Positions 3,320 through 56,402 of a stretch of DNA of 64,000 nt are shown here, piece by piece (positions within the stretch are counted from its first letter, which is position 1; each line of letters starts with the position of its first letter). Made by a program: the position numbers and the translations under genes. This DNA comes from an uncultured Eubacterium sp. Lineage in GTDB: Bacteria > Bacillota > Clostridia > Oscillospirales > Acutalibacteraceae. The notes beneath the pieces are model-generated. The model had not been told where the DNA came from, ran no database searches, and worked only from the letters and a program-made list of their open reading frames with translations. Where the stretch lies: assembly GCA_944380635.1 (NCBI GenBank), contig CALWID010000004.1, forward strand, positions 1-64,000, in the 5' to 3' direction.

Positions 3320-3350
3320 ACTAATCACCATAGCCTTTCAGTCAATAAAA
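3320..3350 (-). repeat. Recurrent leader element, copy A (3' tail only)
   Basis: On the minus strand this reads ACTGAAAGGCTATGGTGATT then AGT and the start codon. It is the 3' end of the element found in full at 45519-45675 and 52318-52477. The upstream hairpin and anti-SD are not recognisable here. The GGTGAT supplies the SD of the serine hydrolase gene. Confidence 0.75.
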
Positions 3351-3494
3351 ACTTATTATTATACCATTCTATATTTCAATATTAACCCAACGGGCAATTA
3401 TTTTCAACAAAATTTTACAAGTATAAAAAATTTGTAACTATTTTATAAAACAGAAAAACTGTAAAAAATTATAATAAAAGGTTTTTTAATGATA

Positions 3495-3574: not shown

Positions 3575-5470
3575 ATGGAAGACGAAAAAACTTTAAAACT
3601 TACTGCTTTTTGCAAAAAAGCCGTTATCGTAATTGTTGATTTTATTCTGTACTTTTTATCAAACGCCGCAATAGTATACCTTACTATGGGCGGTCATGTA
3701 CGGGCAACCGAATACAGCGGTATTCTTTTTAATTACCTGCATTTATTTATAACGCTTGCCGTGCTTTACATTATTAATAAACTGCTTGACCTTTACAAAA
3801 GCGTATGGACTTTTGCCGGCGTTGATGAGATTGCGCGCACCATAGTTGCCGCGCTTTTATCCGCTTTTTCTCTGTTTTTCTTTGACAGAATTATTTTTGC
3901 AAAACTTTTGCATTTTAATGGCTGGCTGCCGTTTTACGCGTACTTTCTTATGTTTGTGCTTGAGTTTGTTGCGCTCTGCGCTCCGAGAATTGGATTCAGG
4001 TTGTTTAAAAGGTATACAGGCAAAGCGATAAACCTTTCAGGCAAGCACAAGCGGGTTATGATAGTAGGCGCCGGATTTATGGGCGATTTCTTTATTAACG
4101 AACTTATTATAAACCATTATAAGGACGGCTACCCCGTGCTTGCGGTTGATGACAACCCCGTTAAAATGCACAAAAGGATAAACGGAGTTAAAGTACGCGG
4201 AACCTGCGCCGAAATACCTCAACTTGCGCAGAAATACGATATAGATATTATTATGATTTGTTTGCCGTCCGCATCACGCACAAGGCAGAAAGAAATAATT
4301 GATATTGCTATGCAAACTAAATGCGCTATCAAAATTTCCCCTTCCGTTAATGAATTTCTTGAGGACGGCGCAAAGGCAAGAAAGATAAGAAATATAGAAA
4401 TAAGAGATTTGCTTGCGAGGCCGGAAGTTAAACTTGATAAAAAAGTTTGCCGCTATCTGATAGGAAAAACCGTGCTTGTAACCGGCGGCGGCGGTTCCAT
4501 AGGCTCAGAGATATGCAAGCAGGTTGCGCGCTATTCGCCGAAATCAATTATTATTTTTGATATTTACGAAAACTGCGCGTTTGAACTTGAAAACGATATG
4601 AAAAACAAATACGGCGACCAAATTGATGTTCACATCAGGATTGGTTCCGTTAGGGATAAAGACCGCCTTAAAGAAGTGTTTGAGGAATTTTTGCCGGATG
4701 TTGTTTTCCACGCCGCAGCGCACAAACATGTGCCGCTAATGGAAAGCAGCCCGTGCGAAGCGGTTAAAAACAATGTTTTCGGCACGCTTAATGTTGCCGA
4801 AGTGTGCAACGAATTTAAGGTTAAGAAAATGGTTACCCTCTCTACGGACAAGGCTGTTAACCCAACTAATGTTATGGGCTGCACAAAAAGAATTACAGAA
4901 CTTATTGTGCAGTATATGAACACAGTAAGCGAAAGCACCGTTTATGCCGCAGTGCGCTTCGGAAATGTGCTTGGCTCTCACGGTTCCGTTATACCGATAT
5001 TCAAAAAGCAGATTGAAGAAGGCGGGCCGATAACGCTTACCCACCCGGATATAGAAAGATATTTTATGACTATTCCGGAAGCGGCGCAGCTTGTTTGCCA
5101 GGCAGGCGGACTTGCAAAAGGCGGCGAAGTATTTGTGCTGGATATGGGAGAACCTGTTAAGATAAAAGACCTTGCCGTTAATATGATAAAACTTGCGGGT
5201 TATGATGTTGACGATATAGGAATAAAGATTACAGGCCTGCGGCCGGGCGAAAAAATGTATGAGGAACTTGCCCTTGAAAGCGAGATGGAAACGAGGAGCA
5301 AAACGGCGCTTGAAAAGATATTCGTTACCCAGCCGATTGAAATAGACGATAAAAAATTTGCGCAGATGATAAACGACCTGCACAATATTGACGAATCGAA
5401 TGTAAGGGAAACTCTTGAAAAATATGTGCCGAATTACCACCCGGCGGCTAATTCCGGAGAGGATTATTGA
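3575..5470 (+). CDS. Membrane nucleoside-diphosphate-sugar 4,6-dehydratase/epimerase (CapD/WbpM/PglF family)
   Basis: A 631-residue enzyme of the large polysaccharide-biosynthesis SDR family, about the usual length. Domains in order: about four transmembrane helices (residues 1-140); a first nucleotide-binding fold with VMIVGAGFMG (about 160); then an extended SDR with TGGGGSIGSE for NAD(P) binding (about 301). STDKAVNPTNVMGCTKR (about 421-437) is the catalytic region. As in WbpM and PglF, the usual SDR tyrosine is replaced by Met and the Lys is kept. Known members dehydrate UDP-GlcNAc at C4/C6 at the inner membrane, the first step to bacillosamine- or QuiNAc-type sugars for glycans. It stands alone with its own promoter and terminator, so the glycan genes must be elsewhere. 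SD GGAG precedes the ATG. Confidence 0.92.
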   Translation: MEDEKTLKLTAFCKKAVIVIVDFILYFLSNAAIVYLTMGGHVRATEYSGILFNYLHLFITLAVLYIINKLLDLYKSVWTFAGVDEIARTIVAALLSAFSLFFFDRIIFAKLLHFNGWLPFYAYFLMFVLEFVALCAPRIGFRLFKRYTGKAINLSGKHKRVMIVGAGFMGDFFINELIINHYKDGYPVLAVDDNPVKMHKRINGVKVRGTCAEIPQLAQKYDIDIIMICLPSASRTRQKEIIDIAMQTKCAIKISPSVNEFLEDGAKARKIRNIEIRDLLARPEVKLDKKVCRYLIGKTVLVTGGGGSIGSEICKQVARYSPKSIIIFDIYENCAFELENDMKNKYGDQIDVHIRIGSVRDKDRLKEVFEEFLPDVVFHAAAHKHVPLMESSPCEAVKNNVFGTLNVAEVCNEFKVKKMVTLSTDKAVNPTNVMGCTKRITELIVQYMNTVSESTVYAAVRFGNVLGSHGSVIPIFKKQIEEGGPITLTHPDIERYFMTIPEAAQLVCQAGGLAKGGEVFVLDMGEPVKIKDLAVNMIKLAGYDVDDIGIKITGLRPGEKMYEELALESEMETRSKTALEKIFVTQPIEIDDKKFAQMINDLHNIDESNVRETLEKYVPNYHPAANSGEDY

Positions 5471-7618: not shown

Positions 7619-7690
7619 ACTAATCACCATAACCTTTCAAACTGCAAAAACAAAATAAAAATTCGGCTCCTGTTTTACACCTAACTGTAA
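7619..7690 (-). repeat. Recurrent leader element, copy B (degenerate)
   Basis: Minus-strand GCAGTTTGAAAGGTTATGGT followed by GATTAGT and GTG matches the 3' end of the element. Further upstream TTACAGTTAGGTGT resembles the TACAGTAAGGTGT hairpin arm of copy F. The GGCTRC loop partner is not preserved. Confidence 0.65.
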
Positions 7691-7753
7691 TATAACAGAT
7701 TACAAAGCGAAAAACAACAGCCGCAAAATTTTTCTCCGTTTAAAAAACACATA

Positions 7754-9707: not shown

Positions 9708-9776
9708 ACTAATCACCATAGCCTTTCCGGCTGCAAAATAAAAAGTTATCAATGCTTTATCGCAGCCTTATTGAAG
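9708..9776 (-). repeat. Recurrent leader element, copy C (3' two thirds)
   Basis: Minus strand: AAGGCTGCGATA (loop GGCTGC, plus coordinates 9762-9767), then GCAGCC (9729-9734), GGAAAGGCTATGGTGATTAG and the GTG. The AACGCC arm of the first hairpin is eroded, but the loop/partner pair keeps perfect complementarity. It is closest to copy E (before alr). Confidence 0.78.
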
Positions 9777-9858
9777 AATACATACCGTAATAATTTTTAA
9801 GCGGCAATTAATACTAATAAAATAACAGCCTTGCCGAAAAACGGTAAGACTGTTACTT

Positions 9859-14353: not shown

Positions 14354-14412
14354 AATAAACACCGTGGCCTTTCATAAATTAAAAAACACATACGCCTTAT
14401 TTCAGCCTTAAA
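14354..14412 (-). repeat. Recurrent leader element, copy D (diverged)
   Basis: Minus strand AAGGCTGAAATAAGGCGTAT then a T-rich linker, ATGAAAGGCCACGGTGTTTA and TTGTG. It keeps the AAGGCGT arm, the linker and the GAAAGG...GGTG end, but the SD half reads GGTGTTTA and the GYAGCC segment is lost. Confidence 0.55.
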
Positions 14413-14494
14413 ATTTCATATTATTTTAATTTATTGTAGCATATTAATGCGCAAAGAGCAAAGTAAAATAAACCTTCATTGATATTTTTAAATT

Positions 14495-20789: not shown

Positions 20790-21557
20790 TTGTTTAAAAT
20801 AAACCTTAACTGCGACCTTGGCGAGGGAGCGGGAGCGGACGAGATAATAATTCCGCATATTAACAGCGCAAACATTGCCTGCGGATTTCACGCGGGCGAC
20901 GCCGTTATGATGGCAAAAACGCTTGAACTTTGCAAAGCAAACTCAGTGGGAGCCGGCGCTCATCCCGGTTATCCGGACAGAGAAAATTTCGGCAGAACAA
21001 AAATGGAACTTTCGCCCGAAGAGGTATACAATATTACGCTTTACCAACTCGGCGCCATAGGTTCAATTGCCAAATCAAAAGGCGTTAAACTTGACCATGT
21101 TAAGGCGCACGGCGCTATGTATAATGCCGCCGCCAAGGACAGAGCCCTTGCAGACGCAATAGTAAAAGCCGTTTACGATTATGACAGGGATTTAATATTG
21201 CTTGCGCTTTCCGGCTCTGAAATGATAAAAGCGGCAAAAGCCGCGGGAATAAGATACGCAAGCGAAGTATTTGCCGACAGGGCTTATGAGGCTGACGGAA
21301 CGCTGAGGCAGCGCGGGCTTGACGGCGCTATGATAGAGGACGAAAACGAGGCTGTGGAGCGCGTTATCAGAATGGCAAAATGCGATATGGTAACGGCATA
21401 CACCGGCGAAGATATTGAAATTGAAACTCACTCTGTTTGCGTGCACGGGGACGGGCCGAAAGCAATTAATTTTGTAAAAAAACTTAACGAGGCATTTAAG
21501 CGAAACGGCATAGAAACAGTTTCGCTTTCCGAGGTAATCCAAGGTAATCAGTATTAA
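20790..21557 (+). CDS. pxpA: 5-oxoprolinase subunit PxpA (LamB/YcsF family)
   Basis: 255 residues starting at a TTG with AGTGAT before it (MFKINLNCDLGEG; the family N-terminus begins in the same way). Conserved LamB/YcsF blocks follow: ANIACGFHAGDAVMM, GAHPGYPDRENFGR, VKAHGAMYN, EVFADRAYEADGTLRQR and CVHGDGPKA. Histidines in GFHAGD, HPGYPD and KAHGA are the likely catalytic/metal residues. It is the third component of the PxpABC 5-oxoprolinase and closes the operon. The full-length leader element of alr begins right at its stop codon. Confidence 0.92.
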   Translation: MFKINLNCDLGEGAGADEIIIPHINSANIACGFHAGDAVMMAKTLELCKANSVGAGAHPGYPDRENFGRTKMELSPEEVYNITLYQLGAIGSIAKSKGVKLDHVKAHGAMYNAAAKDRALADAIVKAVYDYDRDLILLALSGSEMIKAAKAAGIRYASEVFADRAYEADGTLRQRGLDGAMIEDENEAVERVIRMAKCDMVTAYTGEDIEIETHSVCVHGDGPKAINFVKKLNEAFKRNGIETVSLSEVIQGNQY

Positions 21558-21706
21558 AAATGCACTAACAGGATTATACGGCGCTCAAAATCTGCCGTTT
21601 GGTATATTTTGAAACTCCGAACTGCTGTTAACGCCTTATCAGGCTGCGATACGGCGTTGATAATTTTAATTTGATATTTGCAGCCCGAAAGGCTATGGCG
21701 ATTAAA
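21558..21706 (+). repeat. Recurrent leader element, copy E (full length, before alr)
   Basis: Parts in order: AAAATGCACTAACAGGATTATA homology to copy H (given here in pieces), promoter-like TATATT at 21603-21608, anti-SD AACTGCTGT (21620-21628), hairpin AACGCC (21630-21635)/GGCGTT (21653-21658) with loop GGCTGC (21642-21647), partner GCAGCC (21680-21685), then GAAAGGCTATGGCGATTA and the alr ATG. The SD is GGCGATT instead of GGTGATT and the facing anti-SD base changes from A to G, which keeps the pair. Confidence 0.85.
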
Positions 21707-25172: not shown

Positions 25173-25281
25173 ATTATAATCATTAATAATAAATAATATA
25201 AAAACATTTATAAGGCAGGGAATGCCTTTGATTCACACACAGATGTGAAATGCCACAACGCTTACTTGTGATCTATAAAAA

Positions 25282-25310
25282 AACAGCCTGTTTTTTCAGG
25301 CTGTTTTTTT
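25282..25310 (+). terminator. Rho-independent terminator after the lipoprotein gene
   Basis: AACAGCCTG / CAGGCTGTT stem with T6 loop and T7 tail. Confidence 0.9.
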
Positions 25311-45518: not shown

Positions 45519-45675
45519 ACTAATCACCATAGCCTTTCAGGCTACAAAAAATTAAAATAATTAACACCTTACTGTAGCCTGATAAGGCGTTAATGGTACA
45601 GCCATCTCAAAATTATTCAGCAAGGCAAATTTTGAGGGCAATATAATCAGAATCAGTGTGAATTTTCACGCTAAT
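45519..45675 (-). repeat. Recurrent leader element, copy F (full length)
   Basis: Minus-strand order: imperfect palindrome AGTGTGAATTTTCACGCT (plus 45655-45672), GATTATATTGCC, promoter-like region, residual anti-SD TGTACCATT (45592-45600), hairpin arms AACGCCTTA / TAAGGTGTT (45563-45591) with loop GGCTAC (45574-45579), partner GTAGCC (45540-45545), TGAAAGGCTATGGTGATTAG, ATG. Four bases (ATCA) of the anti-SD seen in copy H are missing here. Confidence 0.88.
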
Positions 45676-50835: not shown

Positions 50836-51000
50836 TAAATCACCATAGCCTTTCAGGCTGCAAAAATAAATTTAAAAACATTAACACCTTGCCGCAGCCC
50901 GACAGGCGTTAACGATGATTACAACCGCCCCAAAAGTATGCCGCAGGAAAATTTCAGGGAAATATATTTTTAACAGCGTAAATTTTTGCGCTGATAATCA
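50836..51000 (-). repeat. Recurrent leader element, copy G (full length)
   Basis: Minus-strand order: palindrome with CAGCG / CGCTG arms (plus 50974-50993), ATATATTTCCC, CATACT, anti-SD AATCATCGT (50912-50920), hairpin arms AACGCC / GGTGTT (50883-50910) with loop GGCTGC (50894-50899), partner GCAGCC (50856-50861), TGAAAGGCTATGGTGATTTA and ATG. All nine anti-SD bases can pair with ATGGTGATT (50838-50846), two as G-U. The stretch 51001-51275 between this and the AraC gene is AT-rich with no gene seen. Confidence 0.88.
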
Positions 51001-52167: not shown

Positions 52168-52317
52168 GTTGCTTTTAAGCAGGCAAAAAGCGGTTAAAGC
52201 CGTAAATTTTAATCGGTGCAAAAATTGATTGTTTCATTGAAAAAATATTGGCAATATTAAATATGAAAGGCAAAAGAAAAAAGCCTGAAAAAACACACAC
52301 ACGAGTGATTAATGTAA

Positions 52318-52477
52318 AAAATTCACACTAAGCAGATTATATTGCCTCAAAATTTACCTATGGCATAATTTTGAAACGGCTGTAATCACCATTGACGCCT
52401 TATCCGGCTACAGTAAGGCGTTCATAATTTTTAATTTACTGACTGTTTGTAGCCTGAAAGGCTATGGTGATTAATAT
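52318..52477 (+). repeat. Recurrent leader element, copy H (full length, before mglB)
   Basis: Order: AAATTCACACTAAG, ATTATATTGCCT with -35-like TTGCCT (52342-52347), -10-like CATAAT (52364-52369, 16 bp spacing), anti-SD TAATCACCAT (52383-52392), hairpin ACGCCTTA (52395-52402)/TAAGGCGT (52414-52421) with loop GGCTAC (52406-52411), AT-rich linker, partner GTAGCC (52449-52454), then TGAAAGGCT and ATGGTGATTA (52464-52473) before the ATG at 52478. The anti-SD and SD segments are perfect 10-base complements. This is the best-preserved copy. Confidence 0.9.
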
Positions 52478-53542
52478 ATGAAAAAAATATTCGCGCTGAT
52501 TACATCTTTATTATTTGCGGTATTCTGCCTTACCGCCTGTTCGGCGGACAGTGCCGGCGGAGAAATTTCCGTACTCTATTATACTTTCAGCGACACTTAT
52601 ATCTCAAGCGTGCGCGCTGCGCTTGACCAAACCCTGAATGACGCGGGGCTTAATTACAACGATTATGACGCAAACAGCAGCCAAACCACGCAGACGGAAC
52701 AGGTGCATACGGCTATTGCCAAAGGCGCCTCCATGCTGATAGTAAATGTTGTTGACACCGGCTCTGACGACGCCGCTCAGAATATAGTTAACCTTGCAAA
52801 AGCGCAGAATATACCTGTAATATTCTTTAACCGCTCAGTTGACGAAAGCGTTGTTACAAGTTATGACAAATGCGTTTTTATAGGCACGGATTATGAAATG
52901 GCGGGCCATATGCAGGGCGAGATGATAGGAAATTACCTGCTAAAAAATTACGACGCTTACGATTTAAACGGCGACGGTAAAATAAGTTATGTTATGTTTA
53001 AAGGGCAGGAGGGCAACTTAGAGGCGATAGCAAGAACTCAATACGTCGTTGAGGACTGCAACAGGATTTTACAAAGCGCAGGCAAGCCGGAAATTGAATT
53101 TTACGATTCCGCCAACACAAACAAATACCTTGTTGACCAGGACGGAAACTGGTCCTCGGCGGCGGCAACGAATTATATGAGCACTATTCTTGCCCGCCAC
53201 AGCACTTCGAGCAACAATATGGTTGAACTTGTGATTGCAAACAACGATGAAATGGCGCTGGGGGCAGTATCCGCCTTACAGAGCGCAGGCTATAACAAGG
53301 GCAGCGGCAGCGTTACGATACCCGTATTCGGAGTTGACGCCACAGACGCCGCGAAAGCAAAAATTGCGGACGGCTCTATGGCGGGTACAATTAAGCAGGA
53401 CGGCGAAGGCATGGCGCAGACTATAAAGACCGTTATTGATAATTTTAATTCCTCCGCTTTGCCGCTTACAAATATTGACGAAGATAATATTGTTGGCAGT
53501 TGGAGGGTAAATGTGCCATACTCCGAATACACGGGAGAATAA
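52478..53542 (+). CDS. mglB: Galactose/methyl-galactoside ABC transporter substrate-binding lipoprotein
   Basis: 354 residues with a lipoprotein signal (MKKIFALITSLLFAVFCLTA, Cys21 of LTAC). Periplasmic-binding-protein-like fold: YDANSSQTTQTEQVHTAIAKGASMLIVNVVD, FNRSVDES, and ANNDEMALGAVSALQ. The Ca-binding EF-type loop DLNGDGKISYVMFKG (about residue 165) is a hallmark of MglB. It captures galactose, glucose or methyl-galactosides outside the membrane for MglA/MglC. Downstream genes complete the transporter. The SD (GGTGATT) belongs to the leader element. Confidence 0.93.
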   Translation: MKKIFALITSLLFAVFCLTACSADSAGGEISVLYYTFSDTYISSVRAALDQTLNDAGLNYNDYDANSSQTTQTEQVHTAIAKGASMLIVNVVDTGSDDAAQNIVNLAKAQNIPVIFFNRSVDESVVTSYDKCVFIGTDYEMAGHMQGEMIGNYLLKNYDAYDLNGDGKISYVMFKGQEGNLEAIARTQYVVEDCNRILQSAGKPEIEFYDSANTNKYLVDQDGNWSSAAATNYMSTILARHSTSSNNMVELVIANNDEMALGAVSALQSAGYNKGSGSVTIPVFGVDATDAAKAKIADGSMAGTIKQDGEGMAQTIKTVIDNFNSSALPLTNIDEDNIVGSWRVNVPYSEYTGE

Positions 53543-53547
53543 AACAA

Positions 53548-53576
53548 AAAGACTGGCTGAAAGGCTGCGATGATTA
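53548..53576 (+). repeat. Recurrent leader element, copy I (tail only, mglB-mglA gap)
   Basis: GACTGGCTGAAAGGCTGCGA then TGATTA and ATG. It is the SD-bearing tail of the element within an operon gap. GGTGATT is weakened to GATGATT. Confidence 0.6.
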
Positions 53577-56169: not shown

Positions 56170-56316
56170 TTGAAAAACGGGAATAATAAATATAAAAACA
56201 AAAGCGGCGGTCTTTACGCTGGCGTAAATATATCCAAAAAATCGGCGGATATTCTTGCGGCGCTGAGCGCCGGCGCGCTTGCGCTGTGCCTTTTTGCAGT
56301 AATCTTTTGTTGCTGA
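56170..56316 (+). CDS. Small single-span membrane protein (48 aa)
   Basis: TTG start at 56170, eight bases after the mglC stop, with AGGAG upstream. It reads MKNGNNKYKNKSGGLYAGVN, then ISKKSADILAALSAGALALC and LFAVIFCC. A basic, glycine-rich N-terminus is followed by one hydrophobic helix of about 20 residues, so a small membrane protein attached to the mgl operon is plausible. The SD spacing (12 bases) is long, which lowers confidence. Role in the transporter is not known. Confidence 0.5.
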   Translation: MKNGNNKYKNKSGGLYAGVNISKKSADILAALSAGALALCLFAVIFCC

Positions 56317-56329
56317 AAACAAAATATAA

Positions 56330-56366
56330 AAAATGAGCGGCGCCGAAAAGCAACCGCTCATTTTAT
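56330..56366. terminator. Bidirectional terminator after mglBAC
   Basis: AAATGAGCGG / CCGCTCATTT stem with flanking A/T runs, between convergent genes. Confidence 0.8.
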
Positions 56367-56402
56367 TATGCTTACAGTATTTTTTATAATACAGCGTTTA
56401 AA

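Follow-up and report, generated by a model that had tools for sequence, protein, structure and literature searches.

The window analysed here, a stretch of 64,000 nucleotides (positions 1 to 64,000 of contig CALWID010000004.1, uncultured Eubacterium sp.), carries several copies of a repeat of about 160 nt. The repeat is best read as a miniature mobile element with a conserved RNA fold, which inserts in the gap between the Shine-Dalgarno (SD) motif and the start codon of host genes and probably supplies a replacement ribosome-binding site (RBS). The probability of this reading as a whole is put at about 0.7. It rests on the placement of the copies at start codons, empty orthologous sites in relatives, compensatory changes in the fold and the pattern of decay in older copies.

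Copies in the window and their distribution

Nine places at which a shared sequence block adjoins a start codon had been listed in the first-pass annotation. All nine carry an 18-nt core, each 0-4 nt 5' of an ATG or GTG. The core was exact at window positions 3322, 9710, 45521 and 52456 (four of the nine places), had one mismatch at 7621, 21687 and 50837 (three places) and three mismatches at 14356 and 53559 (two places). The four copies previously taken as full length (E to H) were all matched by the covariance model R1 with E-values from 7e-25 to 3e-35; E, F, G and H all belong to the 28-sequence seed of R1, so these matches are not independent. Copy H, earlier placed at 52318-52477, was recovered as a full copy with corrected ends, the model giving about 52308 to 52473 (Table 1). 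Its previously named helices were likewise recovered, and the list of parts was extended by two 5' hairpins, P0 and P1, which it had not mentioned. The gene 3' of copy H encodes a periplasmic sugar-binding protein (Pfam Peripla_BP_4). The place at 53559 was without an R1 match in the covariance model search of the window, and the gene 3' of it was read by eye as an ATP-binding transporter gene. Very weak R1 matches were also recorded in the window at 25177-25305 (minus strand, E 0.003) and 56300-56396 (minus strand, E 0.04).

Table 1. Copies of the element in the window and parts of copy H.
Feature	Position	Strand	Basis and remarks
Full copy H	52308..52473	+	R1 157.3 bits, E 3.2e-35; in model seed
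Full copy E	21547..21704	+	R1 113.2 bits
Full copy F	45521..45675	-	R1 152.8 bits; 5' of PCC-domain gene
Full copy G	50837..50995	-	R1 136.7 bits
Partly decayed copy	9710..9854	-	R1 48.1 bits; core exact
Partly decayed copy	7621..7741	-	R1 41.9 bits; core with 1 mismatch
Remnant, mostly core	3322..3367	-	R1 33.1 bits
Possible remnant, marginal	14356..14456	-	R1 16.5 bits, E 0.028; core with 3 mismatches
Core only, 3 mismatches	53559..53576	+	Core search; directly 5' of next gene
P0 hairpin, 5' end of H	52308..52332	+	ATTAATGTA / CACACTAA; alignment, covariation helices 1-2, flank pairing
P1 hairpin of H	52344..52380	+	GCC-TCAAAATT ... AATTTTGA-GGC; covariation helices 3-5; in minimum-energy fold
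P4 left strand of H (earlier "anti-SD")	52383..52392	+	TAATCACCAT; swap test; in minimum-energy fold
P2 stem and loop of H	52395..52421	+	Covariation helices 6-8
P3 right strand of H	52448..52456	+	TGTAGCCTG; pseudoknot with P2 loop; covariation helix 8
GAAAGG purine block, probable SD of element	52456..52461	+	Nearly invariant in 81 relatives' copies
P4 right strand of H	52464..52473	+	ATGGTGATTA; 4 nt 5' of ATG at 52478

Across the whole genome, a 17-mer core was found exactly 28 times (0 for the reversed control) and 64 times with up to three mismatches (1 for the control). R1 gave 61 matches in this 2-Mb genome. The expectation that relatives would hold many more copies was borne out in the genus, where 47 of the 59 other sampled genomes carried 1-29 matches each (48 of 60 with our own), using strict filters and at most 48 scored places per genome; individual counts included 29, 25, 25 and 22. 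The 18-nt core with up to one mismatch occurred 0-5 times per genome in 24 congeners and was absent from 15 genomes sampled in the order's other families; this contrast arises partly because relatives carry other versions of the core, as found by model search. In a sample of the order, at least seven of 295 genomes (two of them in this genus) and at least five of 148 genera matched R1, a lower bound since nine candidates were scored per genome. Another genus of the family had matches in 17 of 39 genomes. Named carriers confirmed with the model were Eubacterium coprostanoligenes ATCC 51222, Ruminococcus bromii ATCC 27255 and Clostridium sp. CAG:217, and many uncultured Eubacterium and Ruminococcaceae genomes also carry the element. 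We take its host clade to be the Acutalibacteraceae-type gut Clostridia.

Tandem copies, some of them weak, were seen at G000:C29:3869-4322 (MATE gene; three copies, the first weak), G000:C4:82544-82860 (starch synthase) and G000:C21:18012-18297 (P-type ATPase), an arrangement that looks as if new copies can land beside the 3' end of old ones. In a genus of another family of the order (g53), a diverged sequence related to the element's 3' half precedes the same gene in two genomes, at loci L200 and L202 (Pfam TIM at L200; the same start, judged by eye, at L202). These are possibly an old, fixed insertion.

A covarying pseudoknotted fold

The length of about 160 nt was taken from an alignment of 28 copies with a good core (15 from our own genome, 13 from relatives). 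Copies for the R1 seed were selected by their core, and the model contained the pairs of P0, P1 and P2, leaving out P3 and P4. From 5' to 3', the element comprises P0, a linker GATTATATT, P1, the left strand of P4, P2 with loop GGCTAC, a U-rich linker, the right strand of P3 (GTAGCC), GAAAGGCT and the right strand of P4 (ATGNNNATTA), followed, usually after 2 nt, by ATG. P0 is a hairpin (NNTAGTGTG ... CACACTANN) that reaches 9 bp in relatives and is weakened in copy H. P1 is a long hairpin, GCC-TCAAAATT-GCC..GGC-AATTTTGA-GGC. In H the strands of P2 are ACGCCTTA and TAAGGCGT (52395-52402 and 52414-52421), and the left strand of P3 is the P2 loop GGCTAC at 52406-52411, opposite GTAGCC at 52449-52454. 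The gap from the end of P4 to the ATG is 2 nt in most relatives' copies and 4 nt in H. When the sequence of H was read, the complementarity reported earlier between TAATCACCAT and ATGGTGATTA was perfect, and the loop GGCTAC and its partner GTAGCC were found as described. The role given to ATGGTGATTA as a conserved SD was not supported: relatives often have ATGGGAATT, ATGTGAATT, ATGGAAATT or ATGCAAATT at this place in P4, and the left strand changes to match. What hardly varies is the purine block GAAAGG, just 5' of the P4 right strand.

Covariation was measured in 81 matches, taken from the best 80 of at least 125 relatives' places. Over P0-P3, changes on both sides were found in 29 of 42 pairs and 93.5% of cells were paired; the covariation score was 0.229, compared with 0.095 for shuffled alignments (reached in 0 of 500 shuffles) and at most 0.039 with slid partners. 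In P3, six of nine pairs had double changes with 97.1% of cells paired, and the helix occurs as AGGCTAC/GTAGCCT, CGGCTAC/GTAGCCG, TGGCTAC/GTAGCCA and AGGCAAC/GTTGCCT. P4 likewise occurs in matched versions (ATGGTGATT/AATCACCAT, ATGGGAATT/AATTCCCAT, ATGTGAATT/AATTCACAT, ATGGAAATT/AATTTCCAT and ATGCAAATT/AATTTGCAT). A direct column count for P4 gave 64.3% of cells paired, against 61.7% when shuffled and 64.4% when slid by -1. This count is weak because the left strand shifts by one base between P4 versions, and a swap test was therefore used, in which left strands were exchanged between copies with differing right strands. In the 111 of 132 copies that passed simple anchors, P4 pairing was complete (9/9) in 64, compared with a mean of 8.0 and a maximum of 16 for swapped partners. 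The covariation that had been predicted for the anti-SD and loop helices was thus found in both P4 and P3, and hairpins P0 and P1, stem P2, pseudoknot P3 and helix P4 are each supported by covariation.

Within our own genome, double changes in P4 numbered 17 against 9.1 in the 36 weaker copies, with no excess in the 15 strongest; for P3 the excess was seen in the 15 strongest copies and was absent from the 36 weaker ones. The corresponding counts for P0-P2 are biased by the detection model. The pseudoknot-free minimum-energy fold of H contained P1 and P4, with another inner helix instead of P2 (z -2.88 relative to shuffled sequences); the minimum-energy fold of the copy at L109 had z -8.39. 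A candidate SD hairpin, TAGCC-TGAAA-GGCTA, was rejected, with double changes in none of its five pairs in either 28 or 81 sequences.

Two further pairings were examined. The left strand of P4 could alternatively pair with the segment 3' of P2: at least six of seven pairs formed in 44 of 81 copies (300 swaps: mean 28.3, maximum 40). For exact runs of at least six the count was 18 with a swap maximum of 19, one of five thresholds that stayed within the swaps, and the pairing was weak in the printed strong copies of our own genome. Between linker GATTATAT and the start codon region, at least six of eight pairs formed in a fraction of 0.61 of the 61 copies from relatives (0.38 with background starts) and of 0.40 of only five copies in our own genome (0.37 with background starts). 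A T at -1 had a frequency of 0.84 compared with 0.50 in the background of this test. The linker/start-codon helix was present in one minimum-energy fold, and its enrichment is mild.

A leader peptide was rejected: on inspection by eye, most copies have indels and stops that break the frame, although L023 stays open for about 42 codons from its GTG. Directly 3' of the old SD, most relatives' copies have GTG-TGA, a start-stop pair, and several have GCG. The GCG variants keep the pairing, so structure explains GTG-TGA better than a start-stop pair does. In some copies an alternative 5' module, GAATTTTGACCGCTGCCAGTTCTT... CTCGCACTGCGAGCGGTC, replaces P0 as judged by eye (L156 in G023, L163 and L037 in G015, and L018 near the first copy on G000:C29); it is possibly a repeat family of its own.

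Insertion sites, decay and downstream genes

Placement was assessed in 51 of the 61 matches of our own genome, excluding nine weak or short copies and one overlapping tandem copy, and in 81 copies from relatives. An open reading frame of at least 50 aa, starting -3 to 15 nt from the element end, was found at 127 of 132 copies (49/51 and 78/81, respectively). Random same-strand places in the same loci had such a frame in 20% of cases (488/2463 and 806/3922), which upholds the earlier description of a portable leader adjoining start codons. An ATG exactly 2 nt 3' of the end opened the frame in 21 of 51 own copies and 67 of 81 from relatives, compared with 14/2463 and 26/3922 random places (0.6-0.7%). 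The 16 nt preceding the element held an SD-like motif, its start 4-8 nt away, in 69 of the 80 copies from relatives; among random upstream places, 520 of 2620 (20%) had one. The own-genome figure was 19 of 51, made up of 12 of the 15 strongest and seven of the 36 weaker copies.

Orthologous sites were compared at two genes. For luxS (Pfam LuxS), 30 loci were fetched from 77 matching genomes and 26 were readable; one was filled (G021, ...ggagttga[element]taATG) and 25 were empty, with ggag retained shortly 5' of the start in 23 of the 25. For dxr, 76 genomes matched and 30 loci were retrieved; one was filled (G021, ...gaggta[element]atATG) and 29 were empty. In one operon the element lies 5' of a phospholipase-like gene in two species and 5' of the following luxS in a third. 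Start-codon placement, empty orthologous sites and the 5' SD-like motif together indicate that the element is inserted in the SD-AUG gap, without evident loss of host sequence. Either end can be placed only to within about 4 nt, since NNTA on the left and ATTN on the right may each belong to host or element. No clear target-site duplication was seen, the left NNTA and right ATTN differing in many copies. In the 91 of 132 copies that passed simple anchors, pairing between the left NNTA and an internal TANN exceeded that of permuted partners (position n2 0.87, compared with 0.48 permuted overall and 0.66 permuted within genomes); one locus, L099, was assigned to the wrong genome in this comparison. 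Dispersed copies and empty orthologous sites, two features of a non-autonomous mobile element, were both found.

Decay of the copies was uneven. In the 36 weaker own copies, identity to a reference copy was 0.96 for GAAAGG, 0.88 for GGTGAT, 0.83 for CTAT and 0.75 for the last TA, and 0.44-0.72 for other segments. This retention may be inflated, because the core was part of the detection model and also guided the choice of its seed; core-only copies from the core search (e.g. L004, L006) agree with it. Since the core is kept while the fold erodes, GAAAGG probably becomes the replacement RBS of the downstream gene. At about 14 nt, the linear spacing between GAAAGG and the AUG is long. A search of this assembly for the 16S 3' end did not recover it.

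Known families and possible movers were also searched. The first-pass remark that no described family was known agrees with the Rfam results: a scan of the window returned three tRNAs only, and six matches at relaxed E in five loci were all below gathering scores. A known RNA family was thereby ruled out, and no Rfam intron covariance model for group I or group II introns matched in the window or the five loci. Y1 transposase (PF01797), the expected companion of IS200/IS605-derived (PATE/REP) elements, was rejected as the mover with 0 matches in our own genome. Reverse transcriptase (RVT_1, PF00078) was also rejected; it occurred in 16 of 60 genus genomes, did not track copy number and was absent from the high-copy genomes G015, G021, G052, G065 and G074. 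In our own genome, a 994-aa open frame contains one weak reverse-transcriptase match (G000:C20:46746-47132, minus strand, E 4.8e-8). No blastn match was obtained in the phage and plasmid collections. Pattern searches of viral contigs returned 0 contigs for one pattern and one for another. This IMG/VR contig (L342) has a full copy at 4408-4571 (minus strand, 127.4 bits), 5' of an open frame, 300 codons or longer, that has no Pfam family, and is a possible vehicle of the element. With one viral contig only and collections without a match, a phage or plasmid passenger was rejected.

Twenty of the 127 downstream proteins were scanned against Pfam. Eighteen had a family, mostly unrelated to each other: glycosyl hydrolase 2, HIT, MATE, P-type ATPase, sugar-binding protein, HMGL-like/isopropylmalate synthase, Mur ligase, starch synthase, RbfA, inositol phosphatase, GntR, YceG, S30AE and radical SAM were among them. 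Only seven related pairs occurred among all 127. Such unrelated genes argue against a regulon, and the proposal of shared control is doubtful, the sites being mostly species-specific and orthologous sites empty. At a hydG-like gene (radical SAM/BATS, which we take to be hydG), the element was identical at 158 of 162 positions between R. bromii and an uncultured Ruminococcus, whose genes differ at 38 of 179 fourfold sites and whose 1500 nt upstream are 89% identical; this looks like selection in place. In four close pairs, the identities of the element and of 300 nt upstream were 0.98/0.91, 0.98/0.98, 0.84/0.75 and 0.83/0.85. The element was better kept than its upstream sequence in only two of the four, so conservation in place is not general.

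Explanations, known systems and significance

The proposed course of events is as follows. An element folded as an H-type pseudoknot (P2/P3) closed by P4, with its last strand usually ending 2 nt 5' of the start codon, inserts between a host SD and the start codon. GAAAGG, together with GGTGAT in this species, would then serve as the replacement RBS, and the gene would stay expressed. The old SD and the fold at the 5' side would later decay, and the core would stay as the RBS of the gene, which would explain "short" copies such as those at 3322, 7621 and 53559. The fold may be kept in active lineages, less surely, because it is needed for mobility or for a translation-neutral landing at the AUG. 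P4 and P3 could gate translation while a copy is intact. More tentatively, and at odds we consider low, the element may represent a new class of integrating element targeting the translation initiation site, which would base-pair with both flanks, supply, gate or restore ribosome entry and possibly remove itself from mRNA. Flanks would in that case be recognized by the pseudoknotted RNA or its DNA strand, through NNTA and the internal TANN and perhaps through the start codon and linker GATTATAT.

A riboswitch or other cis-regulatory RNA, in which a signal shifts a P4-paired form with a hidden start to a P4-open form across a regulon, is unlikely. It would account for the strong covariation of P3 and P4 beside the start codon, where a covarying structure does extend over the start region, and for the strong preservation of the copies at the hydG-like gene. 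The P3 and P4 pairings of the SD-hiding switch suggested earlier are supported; the two-state switch itself is possible, with modest support from the alternative P4-left pairing (44/81 copies, swap maximum 40; four of the five thresholds tried exceeded the swaps). Against it stand the lack of a coherent downstream gene set (seven related pairs among 127), the empty sites at luxS and dxr, decayed copies that retain the RBS core and not the fold, and copy numbers of 0 to 29 among congeners with 61 here. Removal of the element from the transcript like an intron, with an excision that would fuse the old SD to the start codon, is quite improbable. The position between SD and AUG, the old SD usually kept in relatives and in the strongest own copies, the compact pseudoknotted fold and the pairing of the 5' flank NNTA with internal TANN above permutation would all suit it. 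Group II introns start with GUGYG, and the 5' end of the element, GTGTG, is similar. The absence of an Rfam intron match and of a group II domain V by eye argues against it, as does the loss of the 5' SD from all but seven of 36 decayed copies that keep the internal core, a pattern that use of the core would predict.

Very little weight is given to a split RBS of the kind found at T4 genes 38 and 25, in which the fold would bring the old SD near the AUG and the core would be unused. A compact fold flanked immediately by the old SD on its 5' side and the AUG on its 3' side, and the T4 precedent itself, speak for it; about 160 nt with several helices is far from the T4 spacings of 22-27 nt (PMC3014915). 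The linker would moreover be unpaired unless the weak linker/AUG helix forms, and decayed copies are mostly without the old SD and with the core. A plain dispersed DNA repeat free of RNA constraint would fit the high copy number and lineage-specific amplification, and is hardly credible given the compensatory changes in P0-P4 and start-codon placement in 127 of 132 copies against 20% at random. The mobile element inserted in the SD-AUG gap thus remains our preferred reading.

Bacterial MITE, REP, Correia and BOX elements are short, non-autonomous or miniature, non-coding and dispersed in many copies. The present element resembles them in being short, non-coding and multi-copy, with copy numbers that vary between close species and with empty sites. 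It differs in lying nearly always in sense orientation directly 5' of start codons, in being without a clear target duplication and in having the covarying pseudoknotted fold P0-P4. RBS-occluding cis-regulatory leaders and riboswitches form a helix over the region just 5' of the start codon. The element shares with these a covarying pseudoknot and a helix covering the pre-start region, and differs in standing before unrelated genes, at mostly species-specific sites, between SD and AUG and without an Rfam match. Group I introns are much larger ribozymes, and a c-di-GMP-linked group I intron positions an RBS beside the translation start. Bacterial group I introns are mobile structured RNA (PMC3984707) and are similar in this respect; unlike them, the element has no Rfam intron match. 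T4 genes 38 and 25 also have RNA structure between SD and AUG, with the spacings given above, in single genes that the accessible text does not describe as mobile (PMC3014915). In Beggiatoaceae, TAACTGA heptamers form direct repeats of two to six copies before start codons; they are abundant, possibly horizontally moved and a few nt from the starts of unrelated genes, as is the element, and differ from it in being described, in the portion available, without a pseudoknotted fold or SD-AUG insertion (PMC4679880).

The element is thus partly a miniature transposable element and partly an RBS-covering leader RNA. We know of no mobile element whose target is the SD-AUG gap. No description of the element was found in the open-access subset of the literature, most subscription papers falling outside this scope. 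Confirmation would mean that a selfish sequence can enter important genes (LuxS, DXP reductoisomerase, RbfA and triosephosphate isomerase) without killing them, and would rewrite the RBSs of dozens of genes per genome. Cultured gut carriers (E. coprostanoligenes ATCC 51222 and R. bromii ATCC 27255) make the element testable, and its compact pseudoknot beside the AUG may serve as a translation-control part.
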